DNA of 64,000 nucleotides from Amycolatopsis endophytica (GTDB taxonomy: Bacteria > Actinomycetota > Actinomycetes > Mycobacteriales > Pseudonocardiaceae), in NCBI RefSeq assembly GCF_013410405.1, contig NZ_JACCFK010000002.1, positions 434,001 to 498,000 of the forward strand. Direction: 5' to 3'. Each line of letters opens with the position of its first letter. Within the stretch, counting starts at the first letter, position 1. Below are positions 1,566 to 33,019 of the stretch, piece after piece. The translations under genes and the position numbers were made by a program. A model generated the notes under the pieces. That model did no database searches and was not told the DNA's origin. It worked only from the letters and a program-made list of their open reading frames with translations.

Positions 1566-2357
1566 TCAGCCCAGTTCCGTCCAGGCCGCGCCGGACAACG
1601 CGGGCATGCGGGCCGCCTGCCTGCCGAGCGCGAGGGCGGCGGTCCGGACCGCGGGTCCGAGCGTCGCGGTGTCGACCTCGCCCCGCCGTGTGCTGATCGA
1701 CAGGCCCGCGATCGGCCTGCCCTCGCGGGCCGTGACGGGTGCCGCCACGCACACCACGTCGGGGCCGGATTCCTCGGTTTCATAGGCGATCCCGGCCTCC
1801 CGGATCGCCGCCAGCTCGTCCCGCAGCCGTGTGCCGTCGGTGATCGTACCCGGCCCCAGGCGCGGCAGCCCCGCCTCGATCACGCGGTCCACCACACCGG
1901 GGCCGGCGAAGGCGAGCAGCGCTTTGCCGACGCCGGTGGCGTGCGCCGGCATCCGGCCGCCGACGCGCGAACCGAGTGGTGGCGCGGTCCGGCTGCGCAG
2001 CTTGATCACGTAGACGACCTCGGTGCCGTCGAGCACGGCCAGGTGCACGGTCTGGCGAGTGGCGCTGCGCAGGTCGGACATGTTCGCCATCGCCATCTGC
2101 CGCAGCTGGTGCGGGCGCGCGGCCTGCTCACCCAGTTCGAAGAACCGCAGCCCGATCCGGAACCCGCGCCCGGCCGGCTCCAGGAACCGGTGCTCGACCA
2201 GCTCGCGAACGATCCTGGACACGGTCGAGGACGCCAGCCCCGTCCGGCGCGCGATCTCGCGCACCCCGAGCGCATCGTCGGGGGGCCGGAAGGACTCGAA
2301 CACCCGCGACACCCGGGCGATCATCGACGCCGGAGTGTCCCGCTCACTGGAGCACAT
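1566..2357 (-). CDS. IclR-family transcriptional regulator
   Basis: Winged-helix regulator of about 263 aa. The N-terminal helix-turn-helix includes [23 protein letters not shown]-like effector domain follows, with the family's [18 protein letters not shown] region and a closing RPIAGLSIS segment. The frame stays open to an ATG at 2393. I prefer the ATG at 2357 because it leaves about 70 bp for two promoters facing the catabolic operon that starts at 2428; a start at 2324 is also possible. IclR proteins commonly control aromatic-degradation operons and respond to pathway intermediates, so this is the likely local regulator of the divergent meta-cleavage genes (inference from position). Confidence 0.85.
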
Positions 2358-2427
2358 GTTAGGAGCGTGCAGGTCAGCGGCGGACGATGTCAACCAACCG
2401 CGTTTCCTCTCACAGGGAGTGTTTTTC
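2358..2427. promoter_or_regulatory. Divergent IclR / meta-cleavage operon control region
   Basis: About 70 bp separate the preferred IclR start from the GTG of the hydratase gene. The plus-strand end holds AGGGAG (2414-2419), a good ribosome binding site 8 nt before the GTG. I see no clean -10/-35 pair and no strong palindrome, so the region is assigned by position only. Confidence 0.35.
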
Positions 2428-3219
2428 GTGAGCCCACAGCCCCGCGTCGCAGAGGCGGCCCGCCTGCTGATGCAGGCCTACGACAGCGGTGTCCCCATCC
2501 CGCCGTTCACCGGCCTGACCGTCGAGGACGCCTACGACGTCCAGCTGCGCCAGGTCGCGGAGTGGACGGCGGCGGGCCGCATCGTCAAGGGGCACAAGGT
2601 CGGCCTGACCTCGGCCGCGATCCAGCGGCAGCTCGGCGTGGACTCCCCGGACTACGGTCACCTCTTCGCCGACATGTTCTTCGTGGACGGTCAGCCCATC
2701 CCGGCGGACGCCTACCTCAGCCCGCGCGTCGAACCGGAGATCGGATTCGTGTTGCGCAAGCCGCTGGCCGGGCCGGGCGTCACCGTCGCCGACGCGCTCG
2801 ACGCGATCGCCCACGCCGTGGCCGCGCTGGAGATCATCGACTCGCGCATCGAGGACTGGAAGATCGACCTGCCCAACACGATCGCCGACAACGCCTCCTC
2901 CGGCGGCCTGGTCCTCGGCTCGACGCCGCTGCCGCTCGACGCCTTCGACCCGCGCACCACCGGAGTCGTGCTGCGCCGCAACGGCCGGACCGTGCAGACC
3001 GGCGCCGGCGCGGCCGTGCTCGGCTCCCCGGTCAACGCGCTGGTATGGCTGGCCAACACGGTCGGCCCGCTCGGAATCACGCTCGATTCCGGCGCGGTCG
3101 TCCTGCCCGGTGCGCTCACCGCGGCAGTGGGCGCCGCGGCCGGAGACACCGTCACCGCCACCTTCGCCCACCTCGGCAGCGTCACCGCGACGTTCGCCGG
3201 CACCCCCGAGGAGAAGTGA
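2428..3219 (+). CDS. mhpD: 2-keto-4-pentenoate (2-hydroxypenta-2,4-dienoate) hydratase
   Basis: 263 aa, fumarylacetoacetase-C fold. It hydrates 2-hydroxypenta-2,4-dienoate to 4-hydroxy-2-oxovalerate in the lower meta-cleavage pathway. Visible family marks are KGHKVGLTS (54-62), the metal-binding PRVEPEIGF (99-107, Glu102 and Glu104) and [10 protein letters not shown] around residue 137. The frame is open far upstream, but the GTG at 2428 has AGGGAG in front and begins where family members begin. It is the first gene of a tightly coupled four-gene operon: its TGA overlaps the next ATG by one base. The paralogue at 5134 shares the fold; order and length favour hydratase here and decarboxylase there, although the two activities are hard to separate by sequence. 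Confidence 0.88.
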
Positions 3220-4124
3220 TGCCCCGCCCCACCGCCGCCATCGTCGGTCCCGGCAACATCGGCACCGACCTGCTGGTCAAGCTGCAGCGCCGGGATGTCT
3301 TCGACGTGCGCTACATGATCGGGGTCGACCCGTCCTCCGACGGCCTGGCCCGCGCCCGCGAGCTCGGCGTCGAGGCCAGCGCGGAAGGCGTGGACTGGCT
3401 GCTGGCCCAGCCGGAGCTCCCCGACTTCGTCTTCGAGGCCACCGCCGCGAAACCACACTTGGCCAACGCCCCTCGCTACGCCGAGGCCGGGATCCGGGCG
3501 ATCGACCTGACGCCGGCCGCCGTCGGCCCGTTCGTGTGCCCCGCGGTCAACCTGGGCGCGCACGCCGAGGCGCCGAACATCAACATGATCACCTGCGGCG
3601 GACAGGCGACGATCCCGATCGTGCACGCGGTCTCGCGCGTCACCGAGGTGCCCTACGCCGAGATCGTCGCGTCGATCTCCTCGCGCTCGGCCGGCCCGGG
3701 CACGCGGGCGAACATCGACGAGTTCACCGAGACCACCTCGCACGCGATCGAATCCGTGGGCGGCGCCGCGCGGGGCAAGGCCATCATCATCCTGAACCCG
3801 GTCGAGCCACCACTGATCATGCGGGACACGGTGTTCTGCGCGATCCCGGGCGACGCCGACACCGGTGCGATCGCCGAGTCGATCCACCGTGTCGTGGCCG
3901 AGGTGCAGACCTACGTGCCCGGCTACCGCCTCAAGTCCGACCCCCAGTTCGACCGCCCGAGCGAGCTGTGGGACGGGCACGCGCGGGTCGCGGTGTTCCT
4001 CGAGGTCGAGGGGAACGGCGACTACCTGCCACCGTGGGCCGGGAACCTGGACATCATGACCGCCGCGGCGGTGCGCGCCGGAGAGCTGCTCGCCGCCGAA
4101 TCGAAGGAGACGACCGCGCGATGA
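3219..4124 (+). CDS. mhpF: Acetaldehyde dehydrogenase (acylating)
   Basis: 301 aa, close to the usual 300-315 of MhpF/BphJ/DmpF. It converts acetaldehyde, CoA and NAD+ to acetyl-CoA in a channelled complex with the aldolase encoded next. The Rossmann motif GPGNIGTD lies at residues 10-17, and the catalytic cysteine is C126 in [15 protein letters not shown]-type and LSDPQFD-like C-terminal dimer segments are present. ATG 3219 overlaps the hydratase stop (TGATG), and its own TGA overlaps the aldolase start (ATGA), consistent with translational coupling of the two complex partners. Confidence 0.95.
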
Positions 4125-5137
4125 CGAACGCCGTGCGCATCACCGACACCACGCTGCGGGACGGCAGCCACGCCGTGCGCCACCAGTTCACCGCGGACCA
4201 GGTTCGCGCGGTGGCCGCGGCACTGGACCGGGCCGGGGTCGAGGTCATCGAGGTCACCCACGGCGATGGGCTGGCCGGCTCGTCGTTCAACTACGGCTTC
4301 TCCAAGGTCCGGGACATCGAACTCGTCGCCGCCGCGGTCGGCGAGGTGCGCCGGGCGAAGATCGCCGTGCTGCTGCTTCCTGGTCTGGGTACGGTCGCGG
4401 ATCTTCGCGAGGCCGCGGACGCCGGTGCCCGCGTCGCCAGGATCGCGACGCACTGCACCGAAGCCGACGTGAGCGTCCAGCACTTCGGCGGGGCCCGCGA
4501 TCTGGGCCTGGAAACCGTCGGGTTCCTGATGCTCTCGCACATGAACTCGCCGGAGGGCCTGGCGAAACAGGCGCGAATCATGGCCGACGCGGGATGCGAG
4601 TGCGTCTACGTCGTCGACTCCGCGGGCGCGTTGCTGCCCGGCGGCGTGACCGACCGCGTCACCGCACTGGTCCAGGAGCTGGGCGAGGACGCCCAGGTCG
4701 GGTTCCACGGCCACCAGAACCTGTCCCTCGGGGTCGCGAACTCGCTCGCCGCGCAGCAAGCGGGCGCCCGCCAGATCGACGGCACGTTGCGCGCTCTCGG
4801 TGCGGGCGCGGGCAACTCCCCCACCGAAATTCTCGTCCCGGCGTTCGACGCACTGGGCGTGGAAACCGGAGTGGACAGTGAACTGATCCTCGCCGCGGCC
4901 GAAGAGGTCCTGGCCCCGATGGTGCCCCGGATGCCGGTCGCCGACCGGGCCGCGATCGTGCAGGGCCGCTACGGTGTCTACAACTCGTTCCTGCTGCACG
5001 CCGAAACCGCCGCCCAGCGGTACGGCGTGCCCGCCTACCGGATCCTGAAGCGAGTCGGCGAACTGCGGTACGTCGGCGGCCAGGAAGACATGATCATCGA
5101 TGTGGCGATCGGCTTGGCCGAGAAGGAGAACGCATGA
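4121..5137 (+). CDS. mhpE: 4-hydroxy-2-oxovalerate aldolase
   Basis: 338 aa, HMGL-like TIM barrel of the DmpG/BphI class. It splits 4-hydroxy-2-oxovalerate into pyruvate and acetaldehyde, passing the aldehyde to the dehydrogenase encoded just upstream. [10 protein letters not shown] near the start supplies the catalytic Arg and metal-binding Asp, and GFHGHQN (194-200) supplies the metal-binding histidines. The C-terminal communication domain is present and complete. It overlaps its neighbours by 4 bp at both ends (ATGA), so all four genes are probably translated from one message. Confidence 0.95.
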
Positions 5138-5916
5138 CGACGTGGAGCGTCGACACCGCGGCGGACGTGCTGCTGGCCGCCGAGGCGAAGCGGCGGGACC
5201 GCGGGCCGATCACCGAGGAGTGGCCGGAGCTCGACCTGCCGACCGCCTACCGGGTGCAGAAGCGGCTGATCGAGCGGAAGGTCGAGGCGGGCGAGACGGT
5301 CGTCGGCGTCAAGCTGGGACTGACCTCGCGGGCCAAGCAGGAGCGGATGGGCATCGACTCGCCACTGACCGCGGTGCTGACCGACGGCTACGTGCTGGCC
5401 GCCGATGAGCCCGTTCCGCTGGACCAGCTGATCCACCCGCGAGTCGAGCCGGAGATCGTGTTCGTCATGGGCAAACGCCTCGCGGGCCCGGGCATCACGG
5501 CGGCGACCGCGCTGGACGCGGTGGAGAGTGTCCACGCCGGACTCGAGATCATCGACTCGCGCTACACCGACTTCAAGTTCACGCTGCCCGACGTGGTGGC
5601 GGACAACGCCTCCTCAGCCCGGTTCGTGGTGGGTGGGAAGGCGGTATCGCCGAAGAGCCTGGACCTGGCACTGGAAGCGTGTGTGCTCACGGTCAACGGC
5701 GCGGTGACCGACACCGCGACCGGTGCCGCCGTGCAGGGCCACCCAGCCGAGGCGCTGGCACTGGCCGCCAACGCACTCGCCGCGCGCGGCGAGGCCCTCG
5801 AGGCCGGGCAGATCGTGCTGACCGGGGGCATGACCGACGCGGTGTTCGTGCGCGCCGGCGACCAGATCGGTGCCGAGTTCACCTCCCTCGGCTCGGTATT
5901 CGTCACCGCGGCCTGA
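5134..5916 (+). CDS. 2-oxo-3-hexenedioate (4-oxalocrotonate) decarboxylase
   Basis: 260 aa, same fold as the hydratase at 2428: VKLGLTS (59-65), PRVEPEIVF (102-110) and an [10 protein letters not shown] segment. In dmp/xyl pathways the decarboxylase DmpH/XylI works in complex with the hydratase, feeding it 2-hydroxypentadienoate; having both paralogues at the two ends of this operon fits that pairing. The dehydrogenase branch partners (2-hydroxymuconate-semialdehyde dehydrogenase, tautomerase) and the extradiol dioxygenase are not in the window. Hydratase activity cannot be excluded. Confidence 0.82.
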
Positions 5917-6549: not shown

Positions 6550-7662
6550 TCATGGCACGCGGACCGCCGCCGCGGCACCGGCCCTGGTCGGCTGTGACTC
6601 ACACGAGCCACTCCTTCCTGTCTCCGGCAGTCCCAGGGACGCGAGCAGATCCTCCTGGTGCCGCAGCCGGTCGCCGAACAACACCGCGCTCGTCGTGGCG
6701 CGGCGCAGGTGCAGGTGCGCGGGGTGCTCCCAGGTGAAGCCCATTCCCCCGTGCACCTGGATGTTCTCGGCCGCCACCCACGAATATGCCTCGCCGCAGG
6801 TCAGCGCGGCCACCGCCGCGGCCTGTGCGGCTTCGGTGGCACCGTCGGCCACGGCCGCGGCCGCCCACAGCGACGCCGACCGCGCCGCCTCCACGCGCAC
6901 GGCCATGTCCGCGCAGCGGTGCTTGATCGCCTGGAACGTCGCGATCGGACGTCCGAACTGGACCCGCTGGGCGGCGTGGGCGCAGGCCATCTCCAGCGCC
7001 ACGGTCGCGCCACCGGCCTGTTCGCAGGCGAGCGCGGCGACCGCCCGGTTCCGCACGCTCGCCGTCACCGGTTCCGCCTCGGCCTCGACCAGGGTCGCCG
7101 GCGCGTCGCGGAACCGGATCGTGGCCAGCTCCCGGTTCGGGTCCAGGGCGCGCAGCGGTTCCCGATCGAGCCCCGCCCCGTCGACGGCGAACAGACCCGT
7201 CCCCTCGCCGGTGCGTGCGGTCACGAGCAGCACGTCCGCGCTCGCCCCGTCCACGACGAGGGTCTTGGACCCGCTGACCCGCCAGCCCGCTCCGGCGGCA
7301 ACCGCCACGGTGTCCTCGGAGTCGTCCACGAAGGCCACGGTCGCGGTGCACGAGCCGGAGGCCAGCCGGGCCAGCAGCTCGTCCCGCGCGCTGCCGCGGC
7401 CGGCCAGCAGCGCGCCGACGGCCAGCACGGAGGTGCCGAACCAGGGCAGCCGCGCCAGCGAGCGTCCCAGTTCCTCGGCGACCACGCAGACCTCGCGGAA
7501 CGTCGCGCCGGCGCCGCCCAGCCGCTCCGGTACGTCGAGCGCCACGGCACCCAGCTCGGTGGCGAGCCGCGTCCACGCGGCCGGATCACCGGCCTGACGC
7601 TCCAGGAAGTCCCGGACGACCTCCCGCAGCTCCTCGGCCTCGGGGGTGTGACTGATACGCAC
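6550..7662 (-). CDS. Acyl-CoA dehydrogenase family protein
   Basis: 370 aa, shorter than the 380-410 of catalytic acyl-CoA dehydrogenases and of the type often paired as a second subunit in actinomycete alpha2beta2 enzymes. The N-terminal helical domain, central beta domain and C-terminal bundle with QFGRPIATFQAIKHRCADM and QVHGGMGFTWEHP are all visible. The region after the VHGGMGF helix (RRATTSAVLFGDR) lacks the usual E-G-T motif that carries the catalytic Glu. The start is GTG 7662 with GGAGGAGG in front. The last 25 residues run into low-complexity sequence near the IS scar, so the natural C-terminus may have been altered. Confidence 0.85.
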   Translation of the reverse strand: MRISHTPEAEELREVVRDFLERQAGDPAAWTRLATELGAVALDVPERLGGAGATFREVCVVAEELGRSLARLPWFGTSVLAVGALLAGRGSARDELLARLASGSCTATVAFVDDSEDTVAVAAGAGWRVSGSKTLVVDGASADVLLVTARTGEGTGLFAVDGAGLDREPLRALDPNRELATIRFRDAPATLVEAEAEPVTASVRNRAVAALACEQAGGATVALEMACAHAAQRVQFGRPIATFQAIKHRCADMAVRVEAARSASLWAAAAVADGATEAAQAAAVAALTCGEAYSWVAAENIQVHGGMGFTWEHPAHLHLRRATTSAVLFGDRLRHQEDLLASLGLPETGRSGSCESQPTRAGAAAAVRVP

Positions 7663-8153: not shown

Positions 8154-9227
8154 TCAGGCGTCGCCGGCAAGCCGGGTCAAACCGCGCCGGACGAGCACCG
8201 GGATGTGCTCGCCCCGGGCCGCCATCCGCTCGTCGGTGGTCTCCCCGCGCAGGTAGCGCGCGTAGAGCTGCTGCAGGATCACCGCGGTCTTGAAGCACCC
8301 GTATGCCTCGTACCAGTCGATCCGGCCGACGTCGATGCCCGACCGGGCGGCGTAGCGCTCCACCAGTTCCTCCCGCGAGGGCAGGCCGAGTTTCGACAAT
8401 CGCAGCGAGGCCAGGGCGCCGGCGTCGCCGAACTCCGGGTCGGGCCAGTAGTTGAGCAGGGTGCCGAGGTCGACCAGCGGGTCGCCGAGTGTGGCCATGT
8501 CCCAGTCGAACACCGACACGACCTCGTCGGGGTCCCCGGGTGCGAACTGGCAGTTGTCGATCTTGAAATCGTTGTGGACGATCGCGGCCGCGCCGGAGGC
8601 CGGCAGCGTCTGGGCCAGCCGCTCGCCCAGGGTCGCCGCCAGCGGATCGCCGCCCTCGGCCGCCGCCAGTTCCCACCGCTTGCGCCAGCCGCGGACCTGC
8701 CGCTCCAGGAATCCCACGGGCCGGCCCAGGTCCGCGAGCCCGCACTCCACCGGGTCCACGCGGTGCAGGTCCGCCAGCGCGTCGATCACCGCCAGCCCGA
8801 CCCGGCGCCCGGCGGCCGGAAGCGCGGACATCGAGGCCGGGACCGAGTCCCACACCACGACACCGGACCGGTACTCCACGACGAGGAAGTCCGCGCCCGC
8901 GACCGCGTGGTCGGTGCACAGCAGCTGTGCCTTCGGCGCCCGCGGGTAGGCCTTCCACAGCCGGGACAGCACCTTGTACTCGCGGCCCATGTCGTGCGCG
9001 CCCGGCGCGATCCGGCCGAACGGCGGCCGCCGCAGCACCAGCGCGGTGTCGCCGAAGCGGATCTGGTAGGTCAGATTGGCCGACCCGTTCGGGAACTGCA
9101 GCACCGCGAACTCGCCGGACAACTCGGGCAGGCGCTCCCGCAGGTAGGCCTCGACACGGGGCCAGTCCAGGTCCTCCCCCGGCCGCACCGGGGCGGTGTC
9201 GGTCTCCCGGGTGGTGGGTTCACCCAC
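8154..9227 (-). CDS. Aminoglycoside-phosphotransferase-fold kinase (ACAD10/11- or LvaA-like)
   Basis: 357 aa with the eukaryotic-like kinase fold of the APH/choline-kinase clan. The N-lobe nucleotide region is FPNGSANLTYQI, the catalytic loop is HNDFKIDN (218-225) with D220 and N225, and the metal-binding motif is DWDMATLGDP (241-250). GTG 9227 is chosen because GGGGAGGA precedes it; it overlaps the upstream dehydrogenase stop by 8 bp, so the two are translationally coupled. In mammalian ACAD10/11 this kinase domain is fused to the dehydrogenase domain, and in the levulinate pathway LvaA phosphorylates 4-hydroxyvaleryl-CoA. A 4-hydroxyacyl-CoA kinase role here is therefore a reasoned inference, not aminoglycoside resistance. 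Confidence 0.85.
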   Translation of the reverse strand: MGEPTTRETDTAPVRPGEDLDWPRVEAYLRERLPELSGEFAVLQFPNGSANLTYQIRFGDTALVLRRPPFGRIAPGAHDMGREYKVLSRLWKAYPRAPKAQLLCTDHAVAGADFLVVEYRSGVVVWDSVPASMSALPAAGRRVGLAVIDALADLHRVDPVECGLADLGRPVGFLERQVRGWRKRWELAAAEGGDPLAATLGERLAQTLPASGAAAIVHNDFKIDNCQFAPGDPDEVVSVFDWDMATLGDPLVDLGTLLNYWPDPEFGDAGALASLRLSKLGLPSREELVERYAARSGIDVGRIDWYEAYGCFKTAVILQQLYARYLRGETTDERMAARGEHIPVLVRRGLTRLAGDA

Positions 9228-10530
9228 GGTGGTCCTCCCCGTCGTCGCAGGCTTCGGCCAGGATCCGGGCGTAGCGTTGCCGCGCCTCCGCCTTCCGCGT
9301 CGGCAGGAGGTAGGGCGGGAACAACCCGTCGTCCGGTTCCGTGCCACGCAACAGCGCCTGGGCGAGGTTGACCTTGTGCACCTCGGTGGCGCCATCGGCC
9401 AGTCCCATGTGGAACGACTCGAGAACCCACCTGCCGAAGGGGAGCTCCTTCGAAATGCCCAGGGAACCGTGGATCTGGATGGCGCGGCCGGCGATGTCGG
9501 CGAGCACCTTGGGCATCGCGGCCTTCACCGCGGAGATGTCCGCGCGCACCTTGCGGTAGTCCCGGTACTTGTCGATCCGCCACGCCGTGCGCAGCACCAG
9601 CAGGCGGAACTGCTCCAGCTGGATCCAGGAGTCGGCGATCATCTCCTGCACGAGCTGCTTGTCGGCGAGGCGCTCACCCTTGGTGGTGCGGGACACCGCA
9701 CGGCGTTTCATCATGTCGAACGCCGCCTGCACGAGCCCGACCGTCCGCATCGCATGGTGGATGCGCCCGCCGCCGAGCCGGGTCTGCGCGACCGCGAAGG
9801 CCCGGCCGCGCTCGCCGAGCAGGTTCTCCGCGGGCACGCGCACATCGGTGTAGCGCAGGTATTGGTGGGTGCCGACCGGCTCGTCGTGGCCCCACACGCT
9901 CACGTCCCGCACCCGTTCGATGCCGGGCGTGCCCGCGGGCACCACGAACATCGACATGCTCCGGTGCGGCGGCGCGTCCGGCTCGGTCACCGCCATCACG
10001 ATGAGGAACTCGGCGAACAACGCGTGCGAGGAGAACCACTTCTCACCGTTGATGACCCATTCGTCACCGTCGAGCCTGGCCGTGGTGCGGAACCCGGTGG
10101 GGTCGGACCCGCCGTGCGGCTCGGTCATCGAGAAGCACGACACGATCTCACCCGCGATCAGCGGCTCGAGGTAAGTCTTCTTCAGATGCTCGGTGCCGTA
10201 GTGGGCGAGGATCTCGGCGTTGCCGGAATCGGGTGCCTGGCAACCGAACACGACCGGCCCGGAGTGGGTGCGGCCGAGCTTTTCGTTCAGCAGCGCCAGC
10301 CGTAGCTGCCCGTACCCCTTACCGCCGAGTTCCGGACCCAGGTGGCAGGCCCACAGGTTGTGCTCGCGCACCGTGTCCTGCAGCGGTTTGATCAGCGCGT
10401 TGCGCACCGGGTCCCGCGGGTTCCACGCGTGCTCGATCACCTGGTCGACCGGTTCGACCTCCTCGCGCACGAACTCCTCGACCCAGTCCAGCTCCCGCTG
10501 CACCTCGGGGCTCGTCTCGAAGCTCCACAT
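9220..10530 (-). CDS. ACAD10/11-type acyl-CoA dehydrogenase
   Basis: 436 aa. The signature differs from ordinary FadE enzymes and matches the ACAD10/11 branch: FGCQAPDSGN (95-104), SCFSMTEP (131-138), a GGGRIHHAMR helix and ADGATEVHK (378-386), whose Glu383 is in the catalytic-base region. In that branch the flavoenzyme acts with the APH-type kinase on 4-hydroxyacyl-CoA (phosphorylated intermediate, isomerisation towards 3-hydroxyacyl-CoA). ATG 10530 follows AAAGGA; longer in-frame starts run into the preceding gene. It sits between the thiolase-fold gene (14 bp away) and the kinase gene (8-bp overlap). Confidence 0.9.
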   Translation of the reverse strand: MWSFETSPEVQRELDWVEEFVREEVEPVDQVIEHAWNPRDPVRNALIKPLQDTVREHNLWACHLGPELGGKGYGQLRLALLNEKLGRTHSGPVVFGCQAPDSGNAEILAHYGTEHLKKTYLEPLIAGEIVSCFSMTEPHGGSDPTGFRTTARLDGDEWVINGEKWFSSHALFAEFLIVMAVTEPDAPPHRSMSMFVVPAGTPGIERVRDVSVWGHDEPVGTHQYLRYTDVRVPAENLLGERGRAFAVAQTRLGGGRIHHAMRTVGLVQAAFDMMKRRAVSRTTKGERLADKQLVQEMIADSWIQLEQFRLLVLRTAWRIDKYRDYRKVRADISAVKAAMPKVLADIAGRAIQIHGSLGISKELPFGRWVLESFHMGLADGATEVHKVNLAQALLRGTEPDDGLFPPYLLPTRKAEARQRYARILAEACDDGEDHRG

Positions 10531-10544: not shown

Positions 10545-11690
10545 TCAGCGGGTGAGCACCGTGCAGGCGGAGACGCCGGGCGCACCGTAGACGTGCGTGA
10601 ACCCGACCCGCGGCCGGTCCGGCACCTGGTGGGCGCCCGCGGCCCCACGCAGCTGGAGCACGTTCTCGTAGACCTGCCGCAGCCCGGACGCGCCGATCGG
10701 CTCGCCGTTGGCCAGGCAGCCACCGTCGGTGTTGACCGGCAGCGCTCCGCCGATCGCGGTCGCACCGTCGATGATCAGCTTCTCCTGCTCGCCGTGCGCG
10801 CACAGCCCGGTTTCGGCCAGGTGCATCAGCTCGGCACCGGACTCGGTGTCCTGAATCTGCGCGACGTCCACTTCGGACGGCGCGATCCCGGCCCGCGCGA
10901 ACGCGTCGCGCGCCGCATCCACGGTCGGCGACTCGCCCCGCTCGGCGGCCAGCCACGGCCCGAACACCTCGAACGAGCCGTAACGCCGCGAACGCAGGCT
11001 CGCGCCGCGCAGGAACACCGGTTCGCCGGTGTGGTCACGGGCCCGGTCCGCGCGGCACAGCACCAGCGCCACCGCGCCCTCGCCCGGCGAGCAGTACATG
11101 TACTGGGTCAGCGGGTGGGAGATCATCGGCGCCGCCGCGATTTCGGCCGCGCTGAGCTCCCTGCGCCGCCACGCCATCGGGTTGAGCGCGCCGTTGCGGA
11201 ACGCCTTCTCCGCGATCAGGGACAGCACGTCCGGGGCGATGCCGTGGTCGTGCAGGTACCGCTGGATCTTCATGCCGAAGAACTGCGTGGTGACCATCAG
11301 CCCGGTCTCGCCGTACCAGGAGCCGATGCCGTGCTCGGCCGGGTCGGTGTTGAACGCCCCGCGCTCGTGCTTGTCGAAACCGATGACGATCCCGACGTCG
11401 GCCCGGCCCGAACGGATCGCGGCCTCGGCGGCGATCAGCGCGGACCCGCCTGTGGCGCAGCCGTTGTAGACGTTGATGAACGGCAGCCCGGTCAGACCGA
11501 GTTCGGACACCAGCGTGTCCGCGTCACCGGCCGAGTGCGACCCGCCGAACGCGAACTGCATGTCGGAAAACCACAACCCGGCGTCACGCAGCGCCTCCCG
11601 GGCCGCGTGCGCGGCCTGCGCGCGCCCGGACACACCGTCCGTGCGGCCGAACCGGTGCATGCCGATCCCGACGATCGCGACCTCAGTCAT
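10545..11690 (-). CDS. Thiolase-fold protein (Ltp/SCP2-thiolase-like) lacking both catalytic histidines
   Basis: 381 aa, both thiolase halves present. The nucleophilic-cysteine loop is kept (YNGCATGG, C78), but the His of the usual VxVHD motif is Gln280 (AQIQDTES) and the GHPxGATG His is Glu330 (GEPIGASG). The C-terminal CxG loop is replaced by THVYGAPG. It therefore probably does not do standard thiolysis. Thiolase-fold proteins encoded beside a DUF35 partner include the steroid side-chain retro-aldolase Ltp2, so carbon-carbon cleavage by aldol chemistry is a plausible alternative. It starts 8 bp inside the DUF35 gene. Confidence 0.85.
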   Translation of the reverse strand: MTEVAIVGIGMHRFGRTDGVSGRAQAAHAAREALRDAGLWFSDMQFAFGGSHSAGDADTLVSELGLTGLPFINVYNGCATGGSALIAAEAAIRSGRADVGIVIGFDKHERGAFNTDPAEHGIGSWYGETGLMVTTQFFGMKIQRYLHDHGIAPDVLSLIAEKAFRNGALNPMAWRRRELSAAEIAAAPMISHPLTQYMYCSPGEGAVALVLCRADRARDHTGEPVFLRGASLRSRRYGSFEVFGPWLAAERGESPTVDAARDAFARAGIAPSEVDVAQIQDTESGAELMHLAETGLCAHGEQEKLIIDGATAIGGALPVNTDGGCLANGEPIGASGLRQVYENVLQLRGAAGAHQVPDRPRVGFTHVYGAPGVSACTVLTR

Positions 11691-12108
11691 GGGTGTCCTC
11701 CACGAACGCGAACGTGTGCACCGGCTCGCCCTGCTCGTCGTCGGCGAACGGCACGAGCTCCAGTCGCAACGGCATGCCGATCCGCAGCCGCGCCGGATCG
11801 GTCTCGGTCAGCCTGGTCTCCACCAGCAGTTCACCGGGAAGCTCGGCGTACCCGACGCCGTAGGGCTCGTAGGCCGCGGTGCCGGTGTAGGGGGGCTTGG
11901 GGCGGAACCCCTGCACGGTCCAGGTCCACAGCGTCCCGGTGCGCGACAGCGGCACGTCCACCATCGCCGAACCGGTGCAGCGCGGGCAACCGCCCTGGCG
12001 AGGGAACGTGTACGCGCCGCAGTCGTCGCAGCGGCTGCCCACCAGCGCCACCCCGTCCGCGGTCTCGGTGAACAACGAGTCGTCCACGGTGCGCTTCCCG
12101 GCGATCAC
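11683..12108 (-). CDS. DUF35 Zn-ribbon/OB-fold protein
   Basis: 141 aa. A rubredoxin-like zinc ribbon has C27-x2-C30 and C41-x2-C44, followed by an OB-fold (TGTLWTWTVQ to the GMPLRLELVPF strand). Proteins of this family bind acyl-CoA and form obligate complexes with thiolase-fold partners (acetoacetyl/propionyl synthases, Ltp2-ChsH2). GTG 12108 overlaps the SDR stop (GTGA), and its stop lies inside the thiolase-fold gene, so a 1:1 partner relationship is likely. The frame extends upstream without a plausible ribosome binding site. Confidence 0.9.
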   Translation of the reverse strand: MIAGKRTVDDSLFTETADGVALVGSRCDDCGAYTFPRQGGCPRCTGSAMVDVPLSRTGTLWTWTVQGFRPKPPYTGTAAYEPYGVGYAELPGELLVETRLTETDPARLRIGMPLRLELVPFADDEQGEPVHTFAFVEDTHD

Positions 12109-12923
12109 GGCGCGGCCAGCCGTCCGCCGTCGACCGCGAGCAGCGACCCCGTGGTGAAGGTCGACGCCGGGCCGCAAAGGTACAGCGCGGCACCCACGAT
12201 CTCGCTGGGATCGGCGCCGCGTCCCAGCGGCCAGTCCCCGGCCATCTCGTCGAAGACCGCCATGTCCCAGTCCCTGCTGATGTCGGTGAAGAACGGCCCG
12301 GCGAGGATCGTGTTGACCCGCACTCGCGGCCCGTAGGCCTGGGCGAACCCGGCGGTGAGGGTGTTCAGCGCCGCCTTGGCCGCCGCGTAGGGCAGGTCGG
12401 CGGCGGTGGGACGCTGCGAGGCCATCGACGAGATGTTGAGGATCACCCCGCCGTCCCGGCCGGCCATCCGCTTGCCCGCGGCGGCCATGAGCCGGAACGG
12501 GCCCTTGACGTTGACCGCGACCACCTTGTCGAACAGCGTCTCGGTCACCTCGTCGAGACTCGGGTAGACCGGGGCGATGCCGGCGTTGTTGACCAGCACG
12601 TCCACTGGCCCCAGCGCGTCCTCCACCTCGTCGAGCAGCGGGCCGAGCCGGTCCCAGTCGCCGACGTGCGCGGCGTGCGCGCTGGTGCGCCTGCCGGTCT
12701 CGGCGGCGATCTGCTCGGCGAGCGCCTCGCAGCTGTCCTTCTTCCGCGACACCACGGCCACGTCCGCGCCGGCGGCGGCGAACGCGATCGCGATCTCCCG
12801 GCCCAGCCCGCGGGACCCGCCCGTGACCAGAGCCGTGCGGCCCGCGAGCGGCAGGTCCGTCAGCGCGGTCGCGCGTGCCGCGCTGACCGACCGCGCGACC
12901 GGCCTCTCCCCCGATGTGCTCAT
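12105..12923 (-). CDS. Short-chain dehydrogenase/reductase
   Basis: 272 aa classical SDR with TGGSRGLG (34-41), NNAG (112-115), a catalytic Ser in ILNISSMAS, Tyr/Lys in YAAAK and a C-terminal VDGG. It is probably a 3-hydroxyacyl-CoA or alcohol dehydrogenase in this beta-oxidation operon. The ATG at 12923 overlaps the preceding dehydrogenase stop (ATGA) and has GGAAGGA 12 nt upstream; the in-frame ATG at 12941 would give a 22-bp overlap and is less likely. A short unstructured N-terminus of about 25 residues precedes the Rossmann core. Confidence 0.88.
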   Translation of the reverse strand: MSTSGERPVARSVSAARATALTDLPLAGRTALVTGGSRGLGREIAIAFAAAGADVAVVSRKKDSCEALAEQIAAETGRRTSAHAAHVGDWDRLGPLLDEVEDALGPVDVLVNNAGIAPVYPSLDEVTETLFDKVVAVNVKGPFRLMAAAGKRMAGRDGGVILNISSMASQRPTAADLPYAAAKAALNTLTAGFAQAYGPRVRVNTILAGPFFTDISRDWDMAVFDEMAGDWPLGRGADPSEIVGAALYLCGPASTFTTGSLLAVDGGRLAAP

Positions 12924-14152
12924 CTCGGTATGTCCTTCCATGTCACGTTGCGGTCGGCGCGTGGTTCGGGCGGCAGGCCCAGCAGCCGTTCGGCGATCAC
13001 CGTGCGCTGCACCTCGTCGGTGCCGCCGGCGATCCGGTACCCGGGCGCACCCAGGAAGTGCTCGGTCCAGCGGTAGGTGCCGTCACCGGCGTCGGCCACC
13101 AGACGCGGGCCGAGCACCACGGCGGCGGCATCGGAGACCAGCTTGAGCCGGTGCGCCCAGGCCAGCTTGCGCACTGAGCTGAGCGCCCCGGGCTCGCCGC
13201 CGGACAGGCGGGTCTCGCGGTCCCGCTGGGCGGAGACCGCGGCGACCTTCTCCGCCGCCCAGACTTCGGCGAGCATCCGCCGCACGTCCGGGTCGCCGGT
13301 GCGCCCCAGCCGGCGGGCGTCCTCGGCCAGCTGCGCATAGCCGCCGCCGAGGTCGGCGTTGGCGCCGGAGTGACCCCGTTCGAACCCGAGGGTCGCGAGC
13401 GTGACACCCCAGCCGCCGCCGACCTCGCCCAGCCGCAGCGAATCGGGAATGCGGACGTCGTCGAGGAACACCTCGCAGAACGACGAGCCGCCCGACATCT
13501 GCCGCAACGGGCGCACCTGCACACCGGGGGTGTCCATCGGCAACAGGAAAGCGGTGAGCCCCTTGTGCTTGGGCACGTCCGGGTCGGTCCGGGTGATCAG
13601 TTCGCCCCAGCCGGCGAACTGCGCGCCCGAGCTCCACACCTTCTGGCCGTTGACGACCCAGTCGTCGCCGTCACGCACCGCGCGGGTGGCCAGCCCCGCC
13701 AGATCGGAGCCGGCCGAGGGCTCCGAGAACAACTGGCAGGCCAGTTCGTCGCCGCGCAGCAGCGGCCGGACCAGGCGCCGCTTCTGCCCGGGCGTGCCGA
13801 ACATCTGGACGGTGGGCGCGATCAACGCGGTGCTGACCGAGGTCAGCTCGTGCTGGCCCGGGGTCTCGAACTCCCGCTCGGCCTCGGCGAACGCCTCCTC
13901 GTGCAGGGGCGTCAGCCCGGCGCCACCGTGCTCGGCCGGCCAGGACAGCGCCCCGTACCCGGCGTCGAACCTGATCCGCGTCCACTCCTGGATGCGCGCG
14001 ATGAGAGCGCGTTCCTCGTCGAAGGGCAGATCGTGGAACACGGCGACGGAACGGCGCGCACCGTCCTGCCGGAGCGCCAGGTGCCGCGAGAGCCAGGCCC
14101 GCGCCGTCTCGGTGAACTCGGCCAGCCCGGCCCCGGTGACGTCAGCGGACAT
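12920..14152 (-). CDS. Acyl-CoA dehydrogenase
   Basis: 410 aa, full-length FadE-type flavoenzyme: N-terminal helices, [14 protein letters not shown] (FAD/substrate loop), [12 protein letters not shown], and the C-terminal [19 protein letters not shown], in which the usual E/G-G-T-S-E-I is GGTDEV. It introduces the alpha,beta double bond into an acyl-CoA. It is the first intact gene of the 14.1-8.2 kb operon. The ATG at 14152 overlaps the end of a broken SDR fragment; the in-frame ATG at 14164 is an alternative start. Its first residues (MRGSMSADV) have a decayed counterpart at 41.6 kb. Confidence 0.9.
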
Positions 14153-15428: not shown

Positions 15429-16013
15429 TTACTCGCGCGTAATGAGTCCGCCGAGATACTTGCCGACCTCCGCGACGATCTGATCGGAATTGACCCGGTC
15501 TCCGGGGCGGTACCAGCGAGCGATCGACGTGAGCGTGCTGTTGAGCAGGTTGACGACGACCGGGACGTCGATGTCGTCGCGGACCACTCCCTCGCGTTGC
15601 CCCTGTTCGAGCAGTCCGGCGGCCGAGCGGTTCACGCTCCGCGCCCAGGACTGGTAGCGGCGCAACGCCTGGGGTGACAGCTGGTGCTGGTCGGACGTGA
15701 GGACCGCGTAGTAAGGCTTGTACCGGATGGCGGAGAGAACATGCAGCTCGATGTAGGCGTCGAGTTTGTCCGCCGCCGACCACTCGCTCGCCGCGATCTT
15801 GTCGATGCCGTCCCGCAAGGGGTAGACGGCCTGTTCGACGATGGTCTCCAGTAGTTCCTGTTTGGACTTCACGTACTGGTAAACCGTGGGCTTGCTGATC
15901 CCCGCTTCGGCGGCGATGTCGGCCAGCGTGGCGTCCGTGTAGCCCTTGCGTTCGAACACCCGGGCGGCCGCATCGACCAGCTCCTGAACGTCGAGCGCGC
16001 GCCGACGCCCCAT
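15429..16013 (-). CDS. TetR-family transcriptional regulator
   Basis: 194 aa. The N-terminal helix-turn-helix is TLADIAAEAGISKPTVYQYV, followed by an all-helical ligand domain with the family's ARWYRPGDR motif near the C-terminus, typical of fatty-acid or aromatic responsive members. It is divergent from the thiolase-to-ligase operon with a 140-bp gap, so it probably represses that operon and itself. On its other side lies the gene graveyard. Confidence 0.9.
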   Translation of the reverse strand: MGRRRALDVQELVDAAARVFERKGYTDATLADIAAEAGISKPTVYQYVKSKQELLETIVEQAVYPLRDGIDKIAASEWSAADKLDAYIELHVLSAIRYKPYYAVLTSDQHQLSPQALRRYQSWARSVNRSAAGLLEQGQREGVVRDDIDVPVVVNLLNSTLTSIARWYRPGDRVNSDQIVAEVGKYLGGLITRE

Positions 16014-28382: not shown

Positions 28383-30323
28383 TCAGATCCGCGCGCCCGC
28401 CTGGTACCCCTCGGCGATCGCGTGACTGATCCGCCGAGGCGTGCGGCAGTCCCCGATCACGGTCACCGGCGCACCCTCGGGCACCTCCCGCACCAGGGCG
28501 TCCACCGGGACCCGCGGGCTGTGCCACACCGTGAGCACGTCCTCCAGGCGCCGCTGGGTGCCGCCGCCGAACGCCGGGCGCAGCAGCACCGGCTCCGACG
28601 CGTCGCCGGGCACGACTGCTTCGTGCCCCACCAGGAGTTCGACTCCGCCCGCGCCGAGCCGCCGCAACAGCGGGCCCGCGCTTTCCGCCGGGACACGCGT
28701 CGCCAGTCCGGTGAGCGGTGTCGCGAAGGTGACCTGCCAACCGTCGCGCAGCAAGGATTCCGCGGCGCTGTAGGCCGGCCAGAACCCGTCGCCCTCGTCG
28801 TAGACCAGCGCGCGCCGCCCCGGTACCTCCGGCACCTTGCCCAGCAGCACGTCGTCGATCGTCGCGGAGGCACGTGCGGCGAGGCCGGGCCGGATGCCCG
28901 CCGACTTCGAACCGGTCGCCAGCACCACGTGGTCGGCCAGCGAGAGGATTTCGGCGAAGTCGTCCGCCTCGATCCCCGCCGCCAGGTTCACCTCCACCCT
29001 GAGCCGCTTCATCTCGTTCCCGAGGTAGTCGACGATGTCGATGATCGTGGCCCGGTGCGGGGACTCGGCCGCCACCCGCACGGTCCCGCCCAGCCGGGTC
29101 GACCGCTCGAAGACCGTCACCCGGTGGCCACGCCCGGCCGCCACCCGCGCCGCCTCCAGCCCGGCCGGTCCGCCGCCGATGACGTACACCTCCTTGGAGC
29201 GCGGCGCAGGCACTCCCAGGTTCGGATGGCGGCCACGCCCGACCTCCGCGTTGACCGCGCAGTGCAGGTGCGGATCGAAGGCCCGGCAATCCTGGTTGAT
29301 GCCCAGGCAGCCGCGCACCTCGGCAAGGCGCCCGGTCCGCGACTTCTCCGGCAGGTCGGGGTCGGCGATCAGCGCGCGGGCCATGCCGACCAGGTCCGCG
29401 TGACCCGATTTCACGATGTGCTCGGCCGTCGCGGCGTCGCGAATCCGCTGGCCCACCAGAGTCGGCAGTCCGGTCGCCGCGCGCACCCGCGCCGCCGACG
29501 GCACCGCGACCGCGTCCGGGTTGCCGGCGTCCTTGACGTAGTTGCCCCGGGTACCGTGTGTGATCGAGAAGTAGTCGGCGCCGAGGCAGGCCAGATCCTC
29601 GGCGATCCGCACGCAGTCGTCGATCCCCATGCCCCCGGGGATCTCCTCCTCACCACTGAGCCGCACGCCGATCACGAACCCCTCGGGCACCACCGAACGC
29701 ATCGCCGCGAGCACCATCCGGGTGAAACGCATCCGGTTGCCGAAACTGCCACCGAACGAGTCGGTGCGCCGGTTGGTCAGCGGCGAGAGGAACTGCGCGG
29801 GCAGGTAACCGTGCGCGGCATGGATTTCGGCACCGTCCGCGCCCGCTTGCACCAGGTTCTCCGTGGAGATCCGCCAGCCCTCGACGATGTCCTCGATCTC
29901 GCGCACGGTCAGCTCGTGCGGCGGGTACGCGTCCCGCGCCGTCTTGATCGGCGAGGGCGCCACCGGCGGGGAATCCGACTCGCCACCGATGAATTCACGG
30001 CCGAGGTGGCACAGCTGCCCGATGAACTTCGCGCCGTGCCGGTGCACCACCCGGGCCTTCGCGGCCGCCGCCGGCACGAACTCGTCGACATAGGCTTCGA
30101 CGAGCTTGCGCGAGCGCAAGGTCGAGCTGCGGTGCACGACGGTGGCCCCGCCGATGATCATCCCCACGCCACCGGCGGCGAGCCGCCCGAAGTGCTCGGT
30201 GTCGCCGTGGGTCGGCACGCCCTGCTCGGCCATGCTCGTACCGGCCGGTAACGCCACCAGCCTGTTGCGCAACGTCAACGGGCCCAGCCGGAACGGCGAG
30301 AACGCGTGCTCGAAAGTCTCCAC
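28383..30323 (-). CDS. Old-Yellow-Enzyme-type NADH:flavin oxidoreductase / 2,4-dienoyl-CoA reductase-like, one Fe-S cysteine missing
   Basis: 646 aa, the full two-domain FadH layout. An N-terminal OYE TIM barrel (EIHAAHGYLPAQFLSPLTN, SFGGSFGNR) is followed by a 4Fe-4S linker and a C-terminal FAD/NADH domain (VIGGGPAGLEAA, 382-393). The normal linker is C-x2-C-x3-C-x(about 11)-C; here residues are C339, Ile342, C346 and C355, so the second ligand is Ile (codon ATC). The cluster may be absent, incomplete or use another ligand. It reduces a conjugated enone or dienoyl substrate. It is the largest protein of the 23-41 kb cluster. Confidence 0.9.
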   Translation of the reverse strand: METFEHAFSPFRLGPLTLRNRLVALPAGTSMAEQGVPTHGDTEHFGRLAAGGVGMIIGGATVVHRSSTLRSRKLVEAYVDEFVPAAAAKARVVHRHGAKFIGQLCHLGREFIGGESDSPPVAPSPIKTARDAYPPHELTVREIEDIVEGWRISTENLVQAGADGAEIHAAHGYLPAQFLSPLTNRRTDSFGGSFGNRMRFTRMVLAAMRSVVPEGFVIGVRLSGEEEIPGGMGIDDCVRIAEDLACLGADYFSITHGTRGNYVKDAGNPDAVAVPSAARVRAATGLPTLVGQRIRDAATAEHIVKSGHADLVGMARALIADPDLPEKSRTGRLAEVRGCLGINQDCRAFDPHLHCAVNAEVGRGRHPNLGVPAPRSKEVYVIGGGPAGLEAARVAAGRGHRVTVFERSTRLGGTVRVAAESPHRATIIDIVDYLGNEMKRLRVEVNLAAGIEADDFAEILSLADHVVLATGSKSAGIRPGLAARASATIDDVLLGKVPEVPGRRALVYDEGDGFWPAYSAAESLLRDGWQVTFATPLTGLATRVPAESAGPLLRRLGAGGVELLVGHEAVVPGDASEPVLLRPAFGGGTQRRLEDVLTVWHSPRVPVDALVREVPEGAPVTVIGDCRTPRRISHAIAEGYQAGARI

Positions 30324-30395: not shown

Positions 30396-31895
30396 TCAAC
30401 CGGAGCCGGCTGTGGCCTCACGCAGCCGCACGGCGAGGTCCGTGGCGTCCCGGCGGGACAGCTTGCCGACCCGGTTCTGGGGAAGGGCCTCGACCTGGAA
30501 CACGTACTCCGGCCACTTGCCCTTCATGAGGCCCTCACGGCCGAGGTGATCCTGAATCGCGGGAAGATCGAGGTTTCCGGACGAACTGACGACCAGCGCG
30601 GCCACGCGTTCACCGAGCACCTCGTCCGGCACGGCGACCACGCACACCTGATCGACCTGCTGGTGGCGGGCGACCGCGCCCTCCACCTCCGCGATGTCGA
30701 TGTTGCGGCCGCCGCGGATGATGATGTCCTTTTCCCTGCCCCTGACCGAAACCCGCCCATCGGGGCGGACCTCGATGAGATCACCGGTCGGCAGGAAGCC
30801 GTCCCCGGTCAGCTCCGGTGCGGTGACGGCACCACCGCGCGCGTAGCCGGTGAACAGGGACGGCCCGTTCACCTGCGCCCTGCCGGTTTCACCGGGCGGC
30901 AGCACGTTCCCGGTCTCGTCGACGGCGCGCAAGACGGTGCCGGGAAACGGGGTCCCGTCGGTGCCGAGGCGGATTTCCTCCGGGTCGTCCGGCGAGGATG
31001 TCGTGTGACCCAGGCATTCCGACATGCCGAACACGCGCAGGAAACTCGTGCCGAGGCGGCGTTCGGCGCGGCTCAGCGCACCGGCGTCCATCGGCCCGCC
31101 GCCGACGGTCATCGCCACCATCGACGCGAGCAGTCCCTCGCCCGTAGCGGCGGCGCCCATTTGCAGCGCCATCGTCGGCACGCACATCGTCCAGCGTGCC
31201 TCGTGCTCGGCCAGCATCCGCACCGCTTCGGCGGGATCCCACTTGTCCAGCACCACCATCCGGCCCCCAAGCAGCAGCGGGAGGTAGGCGCCGAAGCAGA
31301 TCGCCGCCGCGGACGACAACGGCACCATGGCGCCGATGGCGTCACCGGGCCGGAGCCCGACTGCCTCGATCGTCGACCGGCAGGCGTACCGCAACGCCCG
31401 TTCCGACTGGACGACGCCCTTCGCCCGCCCGGTCGATCCCGAGGTCAGGCCGATCACGGCACCGTCTCGCCAGCGGCCGGAAGGCAGCCCCCTCTCGCCC
31501 GCGAGCCGCCACCCGTCGAGCACGTCGGTATCGCTCGGCGGCCGGAAGCCGTCCGCGCCCCACGCGTCGAACAACTCGGGTGCCGCGACGACCGCGTCCG
31601 GCGCGATGTCCTCGCACGCGGCCGCGAACTCCTGGCGCGTGCTGTGCCGGCTGATCAACGCCAGCGTGCCGCCCGTGCAGCCGGCCGCGACCACGCCGAC
31701 CACCGTCCGCCACGTGTTGTCGGCCTGCAGCAGGAGCGTCGAGCCGGAGCCGGCGACGCTTTCCAGTTGCGCGGCAAGAGCTTCGCCGGCCGAGAGAATG
31801 CCGGCCAGGGTGTGCACGCCGTCCTTGTCGACCACGATCTCCGCGTCCGGGGTATCCGAGACGCGCTTGCGCAGGTCGGCGACGAGTTCCCGCAT
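30396..31895 (-). CDS. AMP-dependent acid-CoA ligase
   Basis: 499 aa adenylate-forming enzyme: TSGSTGRAKG (151-160), FGMSECLG in the A5 position, GDGFLPTGDL, VRGREKDIIIRGGRNIDIAE hinge and QNRVGKLSRRD with the catalytic lysine. It should activate the carboxylate substrate of the cluster. Its N-terminal domain is about 30-50 residues shorter than usual FadD enzymes. Its start is 9 bp after the EthD stop, so the two are co-transcribed. Confidence 0.92.
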   Translation of the reverse strand: MRELVADLRKRVSDTPDAEIVVDKDGVHTLAGILSAGEALAAQLESVAGSGSTLLLQADNTWRTVVGVVAAGCTGGTLALISRHSTRQEFAAACEDIAPDAVVAAPELFDAWGADGFRPPSDTDVLDGWRLAGERGLPSGRWRDGAVIGLTSGSTGRAKGVVQSERALRYACRSTIEAVGLRPGDAIGAMVPLSSAAAICFGAYLPLLLGGRMVVLDKWDPAEAVRMLAEHEARWTMCVPTMALQMGAAATGEGLLASMVAMTVGGGPMDAGALSRAERRLGTSFLRVFGMSECLGHTTSSPDDPEEIRLGTDGTPFPGTVLRAVDETGNVLPPGETGRAQVNGPSLFTGYARGGAVTAPELTGDGFLPTGDLIEVRPDGRVSVRGREKDIIIRGGRNIDIAEVEGAVARHQQVDQVCVVAVPDEVLGERVAALVVSSSGNLDLPAIQDHLGREGLMKGKWPEYVFQVEALPQNRVGKLSRRDATDLAVRLREATAGSG

Positions 31896-31904
31896 CGCTC
31901 CCCC

Positions 31905-32225
31905 TCAGGCCCGGAACATCTCGCGCTCGTCGCCGAGCAACGCGATCCGCTTGCCGCGCATCGTGCCGACGTGGGCGATCGCGTCCGCCCATTCCTTGCT
32001 GGCGAGCGCGGCACGGAGGGCTTCCTCGCTGTCGAAGCTCAGCACGGACAGCCCGTCCCAGCCCTCGGAGCGGGGTTCGAGCGCGCTCGACACCGCCGTG
32101 TGGCGCCAGGCCCGCAGGCCCGGCAGCGGATAGGTGACCTCGGCGTGCTCACCACGCCACCAGTCGATGAACTGCTCATGCGTCCACTCCGGCGGGCGTG
32201 CGGCGAGCAGTGCGAGGTTGAACAT
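31905..32225 (-). CDS. EthD-domain protein
   Basis: 106 aa dimeric alpha-beta-barrel fold: begins FNLALLAARPPEWTHEQFID, then WWRGEHAEV, with the WDGLSVLSFDSEEALRAAL core typical of EthD. EthD proteins accompany ether- and aromatic-degrading systems; their chemistry is mostly unknown, and some act as lactonases or decarboxylases. It lies between the SnoaL-like pair and the ligase in one operon. Confidence 0.85.
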   Translation of the reverse strand: MFNLALLAARPPEWTHEQFIDWWRGEHAEVTYPLPGLRAWRHTAVSSALEPRSEGWDGLSVLSFDSEEALRAALASKEWADAIAHVGTMRGKRIALLGDEREMFRA

Positions 32226-32245
32226 CGATGTCTCCTCTCGGGGAT

Positions 32246-32614
32246 TCAGCGGGCTTCGACGTCGAGTTCCGGCGACCGTCCGATGATGAGCCGGGACACC
32301 TTCCCGTCACCGTCCAGCCGCGCGCACGCGACGAACGAGGACTCGAACGCGCCGCCGCGGCGAGCCTGACCCAGGACCAGCTCGTCGGAGCCGACGGTGG
32401 ACGCGGTCAGCACGTGATGCGTCAGCACGCCCTTTTCACGCTGCGCGAGGTAACCCTCCATGGCCGGACGGCCGCCGTTGAAGTCGGTGGCCGCGGCGCT
32501 GCCGGTGCCGAACACGATCGAAAAAGTGAAGTCCGGGGCGATCATGCCGAGGATGTCCTCGGGCCGATCGGAATCGATCGTGGCGAACCACCTGGTCAGT
32601 ACGGGCGCGCTCAT
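32246..32614 (-). CDS. SnoaL/NTF2-like protein 1
   Basis: 122 aa cone-shaped NTF2-fold protein (LTRWFATIDSDRPEDIL start, PDFTFSIVFG, and a strand-rich C-terminus). Relatives are ketosteroid isomerase, SnoaL cyclases, limonene-epoxide hydrolase and dehydratases. ATG overlaps the stop of the second NTF2-like gene (ATGA), so the two may form a heteromer. No catalytic Asp/His pair can be assigned with confidence. Confidence 0.75.
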   Translation of the reverse strand: MSAPVLTRWFATIDSDRPEDILGMIAPDFTFSIVFGTGSAAATDFNGGRPAMEGYLAQREKGVLTHHVLTASTVGSDELVLGQARRGGAFESSFVACARLDGDGKVSRLIIGRSPELDVEAR

Positions 32615-32979
32615 GCGTTGTTTCCCTCGGGGAGCGCGAACATGTGGAACGTCGTGTGGAAGAACGCCTGGTACCGCGCGATCTTCTGGTCCGGCGACAG
32701 CAGCGCCACCGCGGAGAAGGAACCGGTGCCCTTACCGTTGCCCTCGGTGACGTAACCGTAGACCATTTCCAGGTCGCCGTCCGAGCAGGCGCTGATCACG
32801 TTGTGCTTGCGGCCGACCGGCGGCCGCCCTTCGAGGTAGTCACGAAGCGCGTCCTGGCCGTTACCGGTGGTGTCATCACCGCGCACGGCGATGAGGAACT
32901 CGACACCGGGCTCCACGAGGTTCAGCCCGGTCAGCGGCTCCGGGCCGTCGATCCGCGCGTAGTAATCGGTAATGACCAT
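32611..32979 (-). CDS. SnoaL/NTF2-like protein 2
   Basis: 122 aa from ATG 32979 (GGAAAGGAAG upstream; the in-frame ATG at 33009 has no ribosome binding site). The NTF2-like pattern YYARIDGPEPLTGLNLVEPG and the KIARYQAFFHTTFHMF C-terminal strands match its neighbour in size and fold but not closely in sequence. It is coupled to that neighbour by a 4-bp overlap. Tandem NTF2-like genes between a TetR and an EthD gene are a distinctive feature of this cluster. Confidence 0.72.
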   Translation of the reverse strand: MVITDYYARIDGPEPLTGLNLVEPGVEFLIAVRGDDTTGNGQDALRDYLEGRPPVGRKHNVISACSDGDLEMVYGYVTEGNGKGTGSFSAVALLSPDQKIARYQAFFHTTFHMFALPEGNNA

Positions 32980-33019
32980 CGGCACTTCCTTTCCATTGTG
33001 ACCGCTCATCAGCGGCGGT

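Follow-up and report, generated by a model that had tools for sequence, protein, structure and literature searches.

An ACAD11-Like Dehydrogenase and an APH-Fold Kinase Encoded by Overlapping Genes: A Predicted Phosphorylate-and-Eliminate Module for Gamma-Hydroxylated Acyl-CoAs

Introduction

Can two overlapping bacterial genes, one for an acyl-CoA dehydrogenase (ACAD) and one for an APH-fold kinase, perform the chemistry of mammalian ACAD10 and ACAD11, and are they orthologs of these proteins? The question is raised by the window analyzed here, a stretch of 64,000 nucleotides (G000:C2:434001-498000) in a host genome of 7.2 Mb and two contigs, in which a first-pass annotation described such a pair as a "split ACAD10/11". 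The ACAD10/11 chemistry was explained in two papers, published in 2024 and 2025; beyond these, the papers listed in a literature search whose scope left out most subscription journals include none on the clade of the window ACAD. We propose, with a probability of about 0.75, that the products of the two genes act together as a phosphorylate-and-eliminate module on gamma-hydroxylated acyl-CoAs. The chemistry of the pair is very probably ACAD10/11-like. The pair itself is outside the ACAD10/11 orthologous clade.

Results and Discussion

The Gene Pair and Its Neighborhood

The features of the window are listed in Table 1. The Pfam analysis assigned Acyl-CoA_dh N, M, and C domains to the window ACAD, whose nearest named relatives are from Prauserella and Pseudonocardia, and an APH domain (1e-38) to the kinase. 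The motifs quoted in the first-pass annotation were all found, namely FGCQAPDSGN, SCFSMTEP, and ADGATEVHK in the dehydrogenase and HNDFKIDN and DWDMATLGDP in the kinase, and so were the SDR, the DUF35 protein (zf-ChsH2 and OB_ChsH2_C in Pfam), and the thiolase-like protein that it had placed beside them.

Table 1. Coordinates of the gene pair, its neighbors, and other features of the window.
Feature	Position	Strand	Remarks
ACAD11-like acyl-CoA-dehydrogenase-fold protein (window ACAD)	9220-10530	-	436 aa, ATG start; predicted 4-phosphoacyl-CoA phosphate-eliminating enzyme
APH-fold kinase	8154-9227	-	357 aa, GTG start; predicted 4-hydroxyacyl-CoA kinase
8-base overlap GTGGGTGA	9220-9227	-	ACAD stop (TGA) and kinase start (GTG)
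TetR-family regulator	15429-16013	-	upstream of the run
SDR remnant, C-terminal 49 aa	14154-14300	-	75.5% identical to the SDR upstream of ACAD2 in locus L008
ACAD2, ordinary acyl-CoA dehydrogenase	12920-14152	-	best named match PimC large subunit, below cut-off
Short-chain dehydrogenase (SDR)	12105-12923	-	candidate 4-oxo/4-hydroxyacyl-CoA oxidoreductase
DUF35 (zinc ribbon and OB fold)	11683-12108	-	presumed partner of the thiolase-fold protein
Thiolase-fold protein, lipid-transfer-protein type	10545-11690	-	altered active site
ACAD3, divergent acyl-CoA dehydrogenase	6550-7662	-	possibly second subunit with ACAD2
Meta-cleavage lower pathway	2059-5916		aldolase above its cut-off
CoA ligase	30396-31895		second-best match cyclohexanecarboxylate ligase; below curated cut-off
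Flavoprotein	33708-35024		best match tricarballylate dehydrogenase TcuA; below curated cut-off
Mycofactocin-type OYE	28383-30323		below curated cut-off

The 8 bp overlap of stop and start, as first reported, holds with the kinase start at 9227. It hinges on this GTG, since an alternative GTG 39 bp further in (9188) is possible; the gene caller favored the latter, with which the ACAD-kinase gap is 31 bp. The kinase queries spanned 8154-9230 and thus contained one surplus N-terminal residue. According to the gene calls of relatives, the two genes overlap by 8 bp in L016 and by 4 bp in L019 and L042, and are separated by 4 bp in L015, 31 bp in L008, and 66 bp in L031. Larger distances or a different gene order were found in L017, L030, and L033, and the gaps of the relatives range from 4 to 336 bp.

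The order of transcription is TetR, SDR remnant, ACAD2, SDR, DUF35, thiolase-fold protein, window ACAD, kinase, and ACAD3, with the genes from ACAD2 through the kinase lying end to end or overlapping. We searched for the window genes near the ACAD at 80 loci (the best 80 of 587 relatives) at an identity of at least 50%. The SDR was the commonest (36/80); the thiolase-fold protein was found at 14 loci, and the close kinase type was rare (9). One SDR of L008 (4564-5391) matches two pieces of the window on the minus strand, the C-terminal remnant of Table 1 and an N-terminal piece of 34 aa at 41701-41802 (67.6%). A distance of 27 kb separates these pieces, as though a block had been inserted between them and the middle lost.

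Phosphate-Handling Residues of the Window ACAD

Among PDB sequences, the window ACAD matched mouse ACAD11 (8V3U, 256.7 bits; 8V3V, 254.4 bits), 4HR3 of M. abscessus (241.5 bits), and human ACAD11 (2WBI, 238 bits), whereas no ordinary ACAD scored above 154.8 bits. In the alignment, R251, R256, H259, R262, D379, and H222 of the window ACAD correspond to R626, R631, H634, R637, D753, and H597 of mouse ACAD11. In PMC12440821, R626, H634, and R637 are modeled as holding the 4-phosphate; replacing any of these residues or the base D753 blocks the elimination, R637K only partly, and a redox-active FAD is required. PMC11342911 proposes that a hydride passes to FAD and then back.

Of the best 80 of 587 relatives, 79 have the full quartet at the positions of R626, H634, R637, and D753; the exception (L060) has a masked letter at the Asp. 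The quartet is also present in 4HR3. It was complete in none of 22 other ACADs, which comprised 4U83 and 21 proteins drawn from the 38 other matches in the host genome; some of them have Arg at the R637 position alone. ACAD2 and ACAD3 of the window likewise do not have the complete set. The four residues offer a simple diagnostic for such ACADs.

Phylogenetic Position

We built a maximum-likelihood tree (IQ-TREE, LG+G4+F, 1000 ultrafast bootstraps) of 59 sequences, including the 22 ordinary ACADs, as a subset of a larger set analyzed with FastTree. The quartet-bearing sequences formed a single clade (UFBoot 100), which splits into an ACAD11 clade of four sequences (UFBoot 100) and a window clade with 33 sampled members (UFBoot 94). 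FastTree on the full set agreed, with supports of 1.0, 0.993, and 0.898, respectively. A phylogeny of the dehydrogenase against ordinary FadE enzymes had been suggested as a check, and the window ACAD fell outside the 22 ordinary ACADs sampled.

The ACAD11 clade contains mouse and human ACAD11, 4HR3, and a second ACAD of the host genome (L002). For the window ACAD, the identity is 39% with mouse ACAD11 and 41% with L002; L002 itself shares 56% with ACAD11. The window kinase shares 34% identity with the kinase domain of mouse ACAD11. Several positions are invariant and different between the window and ACAD11 clades (81 versus 4 sequences): G254/P629, G141/S512, P144/A515, T382/D756, and W302/R677. 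Because of these differences, such as G254/P629 and T382/D756, and the identity of about 40%, the substrate may differ from that of ACAD11.

The reading as a split ACAD10/11 is therefore apt for the chemistry, since the phosphate residues of the ACAD and the catalytic and CoA-contact residues of the kinase are kept, and inapt for orthology, since the window ACAD is in a sister clade. The window also encodes the kinase and the ACAD as two overlapping genes and not as one polypeptide. The role of a split ortholog is better fitted by the second pair of the host genome (C1:4615436-4617636), in which L002 (C1:4615436) is accompanied by a kinase at C1:4616644. The record titles of the window clade, for the best 80 of 587 relatives, name Actinobacteria, Proteobacteria, and Binatota.

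Gene Context and Substrate

The SDR of the levulinate pathway is LvaD, and the lva operon gene set also includes LvaB and the ligase LvaE. LvaA and LvaC are described as the Pseudomonas levulinate kinase and ACAD in PMC12440821. The SDR, kinase, and ACAD of the window resemble LvaD, LvaA, and LvaC, so the same phosphorylate-and-eliminate chemistry could simply belong to a plain levulinate or 4-hydroxyvalerate pathway. We consider this improbable. The run is without a CoA ligase, and ACAD2, ACAD3, and the DUF35-thiolase pair seem superfluous for a C5 acid. Moreover, PMC11342911 gives LvaC as 62% identical to ACAD10 and 56% to ACAD11; by these reported identities, LvaC should group with them in the ACAD11 clade and not in the window clade. 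Judged from the gene context, plain levulinate is an unlikely substrate, and the earlier suggestion of a pathway "not obviously the levulinate one" is plausible.

The thiolase-fold protein keeps the Cys (NGCATGG), with HDxF changed to QDTE and GHP to GEP. The alignment of the window protein and 14 orthologs showed conserved NGC(A/G)TGG, QDTE, and NGEP. An Ltp2/Sal aldolase function was considered for this protein and rejected on the QDTE found in all of them. A second thiolase-fold family occurs in relatives (L008:2545-3747, L015 from 5803, L016 from 217, and others), with YDCF in 9/9 aligned sequences.

Elsewhere in the window, the flavoprotein has weaker matches to 3-ketosteroid and 4-oxocyclohexene-carboxylate dehydrogenases. 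Because the matches of the ligase, the flavoprotein, and the OYE are below curated cut-offs, an alicyclic or aromatic acid substrate is a guess, and we would likewise offer a branched or alicyclic acid as a guess for the substrate of the pair. The region 30396-36590, apart from the ACAD-kinase run, carries an L005/L113-like ligase, EthD-like, SnoaL-like, TetR, flavoprotein, SDR, and enoyl-CoA hydratase genes; in L005, L006, L007, L009, L013, and L113, most genes of this type are clustered with the ACAD. No counterpart of the APH gene preceding the SDR in L005/L113-type clusters was found in the window.

The Kinase and Its Linkage to the Clade

Six PDB matches were found for the window kinase: 9O56 (266.5 bits), the ACAD11 kinase domain (161 and 157 bits), 3DXP (156 bits), 3ATS (37 bits), and 9FSG (25 bits). 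In the PDB, 9O56 is named only aminoglycoside phosphotransferase, 9FSG the same or "-like", 3DXP putative acyl-CoA dehydrogenase, and 3ATS uncharacterized. No paper on 9O56 was found in the literature searched, with most subscription journals outside its scope. D220, N225, and R176 of the window kinase have identical numbers in mouse ACAD11. R82 is the Arg preceding the alphaC Glu and is kept as in ACAD11, for which PMC12440821 states that R86 "neighbors the canonical glutamate"; since we count this Arg as residue 84 of mouse ACAD11, the match relies on the wording of the paper and not on its numbering.

Among the kinases aligned, all of them from near the ACADs, both CoA-contact arginines were found in 28 of 35, the exceptions being five L005-type kinases, L039, and L028. 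The window ACAD is accompanied by an APH-fold partner with the catalytic Asp and Asn and these arginines. The kinase tree of the ACAD neighbors has several groups: one of the window type (HND), others that are ACAD11-like, and others with HGDYH.

Of the best 80 of 587 relatives, 35 have an APH kinase nearby, one of these kinases (L022) being a weak partial match. At the 43 loci with full flanks of 9 kb on both sides, a kinase lay within 9 kb in 26, or in 20 if only kinases with both arginines are counted, compared with 2.3 expected from the 20 APH matches in the host genome; the APH profile was partly built from the same kinases later counted. A window-type ACAD (E ≤ 1e-140) was present in 44 of 249 same-order genomes, host included. 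We picked 14 genomes from the 43 non-host carriers and searched them at E ≤ 1e-15. A kinase was within 5 kb of 15 of 29 ACAD places (0.27 expected), and 13 of the 14 genomes had at least one such place, the exception being G102 with a kinase at 17 kb. These expected figures are rough because the loci are related. A nearby kinase was absent from 17 of the 43 full-flank loci (9 kb) and 14 of the 29 places (5 kb); some members may thus rely on a kinase encoded farther away or have another function.

In the 249 genomes, the close kinase (E ≤ 1e-100) was found only in the host and in G158, where it is 20 bp from the ACAD. It was missing in G203 (ACAD 89% identical) and in L005, L006, L007, L009, and L013, the identities of these ACADs being 84-90%. 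The operon APH gene of the latter five loci encodes neither CoA-contact arginine, and that of G203 is of the same type. We considered that one kinase had replaced the other, given that these loci have another APH gene in the operon and no close kinase, the reverse of the window; this idea was dropped because that APH gene encodes neither arginine. A kinase of 62-64% identity lies on the same contig, outside the locus examined, in P. dioxanivorans (L010, G005) and in G007 (L014).

Two further observations concern the genomes searched. Five of them (G049, G131, G145, G169, and G181) have two window-clade ACADs at a distance of about 40 kb, and a kinase adjoins one of the two; in G145 and G049 the second adjoins an SDR. 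The loci concerned include L111, L112, L115, and L116. The APH match at G000:C2:1683144-1683827 is within an open reading frame 13,230 codons long, which may be the gene of a giant synthase.

The absence of a nearby kinase from many clade members could mean that the window ACAD is an ordinary acyl-CoA dehydrogenase, for example (R)-benzylsuccinyl-CoA dehydrogenase, beside which the kinase lies by chance. One relative from Pseudonocardia dioxanivorans bears this name, and in comparison with the gene order of the bbs operon, the DUF35-thiolase and SDR genes, plus CoA-transferase genes in some relatives, look similar. However, the window ACAD has the Asp base at the ACAD11 position together with the R/H/R set, a combination complete in none of the 22 other ACADs, the tree puts the window ACAD with ACAD11, and the kinase linkage is far above expectation; we give this explanation little chance. 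It is very improbable that the kinase acts on an aminoglycoside or another small alcohol unconnected to acyl-CoA: its Pfam family, the names of its best and weakest PDB matches, and one neighboring APH group without the CoA-contact residues would fit, but its second and third PDB matches are the ACAD11 kinase domain, D220, N225, R82, and R176 are kept, and its gene overlaps that of the ACAD, with the homolog in G158 similarly close.

Proposed Mechanism

In the module that we propose, a 4-hydroxyacyl-CoA and ATP would give a 4-phosphoacyl-CoA and then a 2-enoyl-CoA. The APH-fold kinase would transfer the gamma-phosphate of ATP to the 4-hydroxyl of the acyl-CoA through D220 and N225, while R82 and R176 may contact CoA. 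In the ACAD, D379 would remove the alpha proton and FAD would briefly take the beta hydride, with R251, H259, and R262 gripping the 4-phosphate. The phosphate would then depart and the hydride return, giving the 2-enoyl-CoA with no net redox change. The SDR may set the 4-oxo/4-hydroxy state, and the chain may be processed further by the remaining ACADs together with the DUF35 and thiolase-like proteins.

More tentatively, and with less than even confidence, the window clade could represent a general bacterial dehydroxylation module, in which a redox-neutral flavoenzyme, having joined with several APH kinase subfamilies, clears gamma-hydroxyls, in the form of phosphates, from alicyclic or branched CoA acids. 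In the window it would feed a DUF35-thiolase-fold enzyme whose Cys/Gln/Glu active site would be new. If the proposed chemistry is true, its occurrence in a second clade with these active-site residues would carry it beyond levulinate and 4-hydroxy acids of lipid origin to further acids found in the environment. Proteins named only "acyl-CoA dehydrogenase" could then be re-annotated, at the 80 loci (best 80 of 587) and for most of the 120 proteins listed.

Comparison with Known Systems

The window pair matches mammalian ACAD10/ACAD11 in both folds, in D220, N225, and R176 of the kinase, and in six ACAD residues. However, the mammalian protein is a single chain, whereas the window has two proteins, and its ACAD belongs to a sister clade marked by invariant residues not shared with ACAD11. 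Pseudomonas LvaA and LvaC are a separate kinase and ACAD, as in the window; LvaC, with a reported identity of 62% to ACAD10 and 56% to ACAD11 (PMC11342911), differs from the window ACAD, which is about 40% identical to ACAD11. 4HR3 shares the phosphate-handling set with the window ACAD but sits in the ACAD11 clade.

The Ltp2-ChsH2 and Sal-Shy aldolases and the BbsAB thiolase likewise combine a thiolase-fold protein with a DUF35 partner. Their active sites are different: the window protein has Cys, QDTE, and GEP, BbsB has HDAF and GHP, and the steroid aldolases (Ltp2/Sal) have YDHF or YDCY according to PMC12329534. By the same source, the YDCF of the second thiolase-fold family is as in TbSLP and near the YDCY of Sal.
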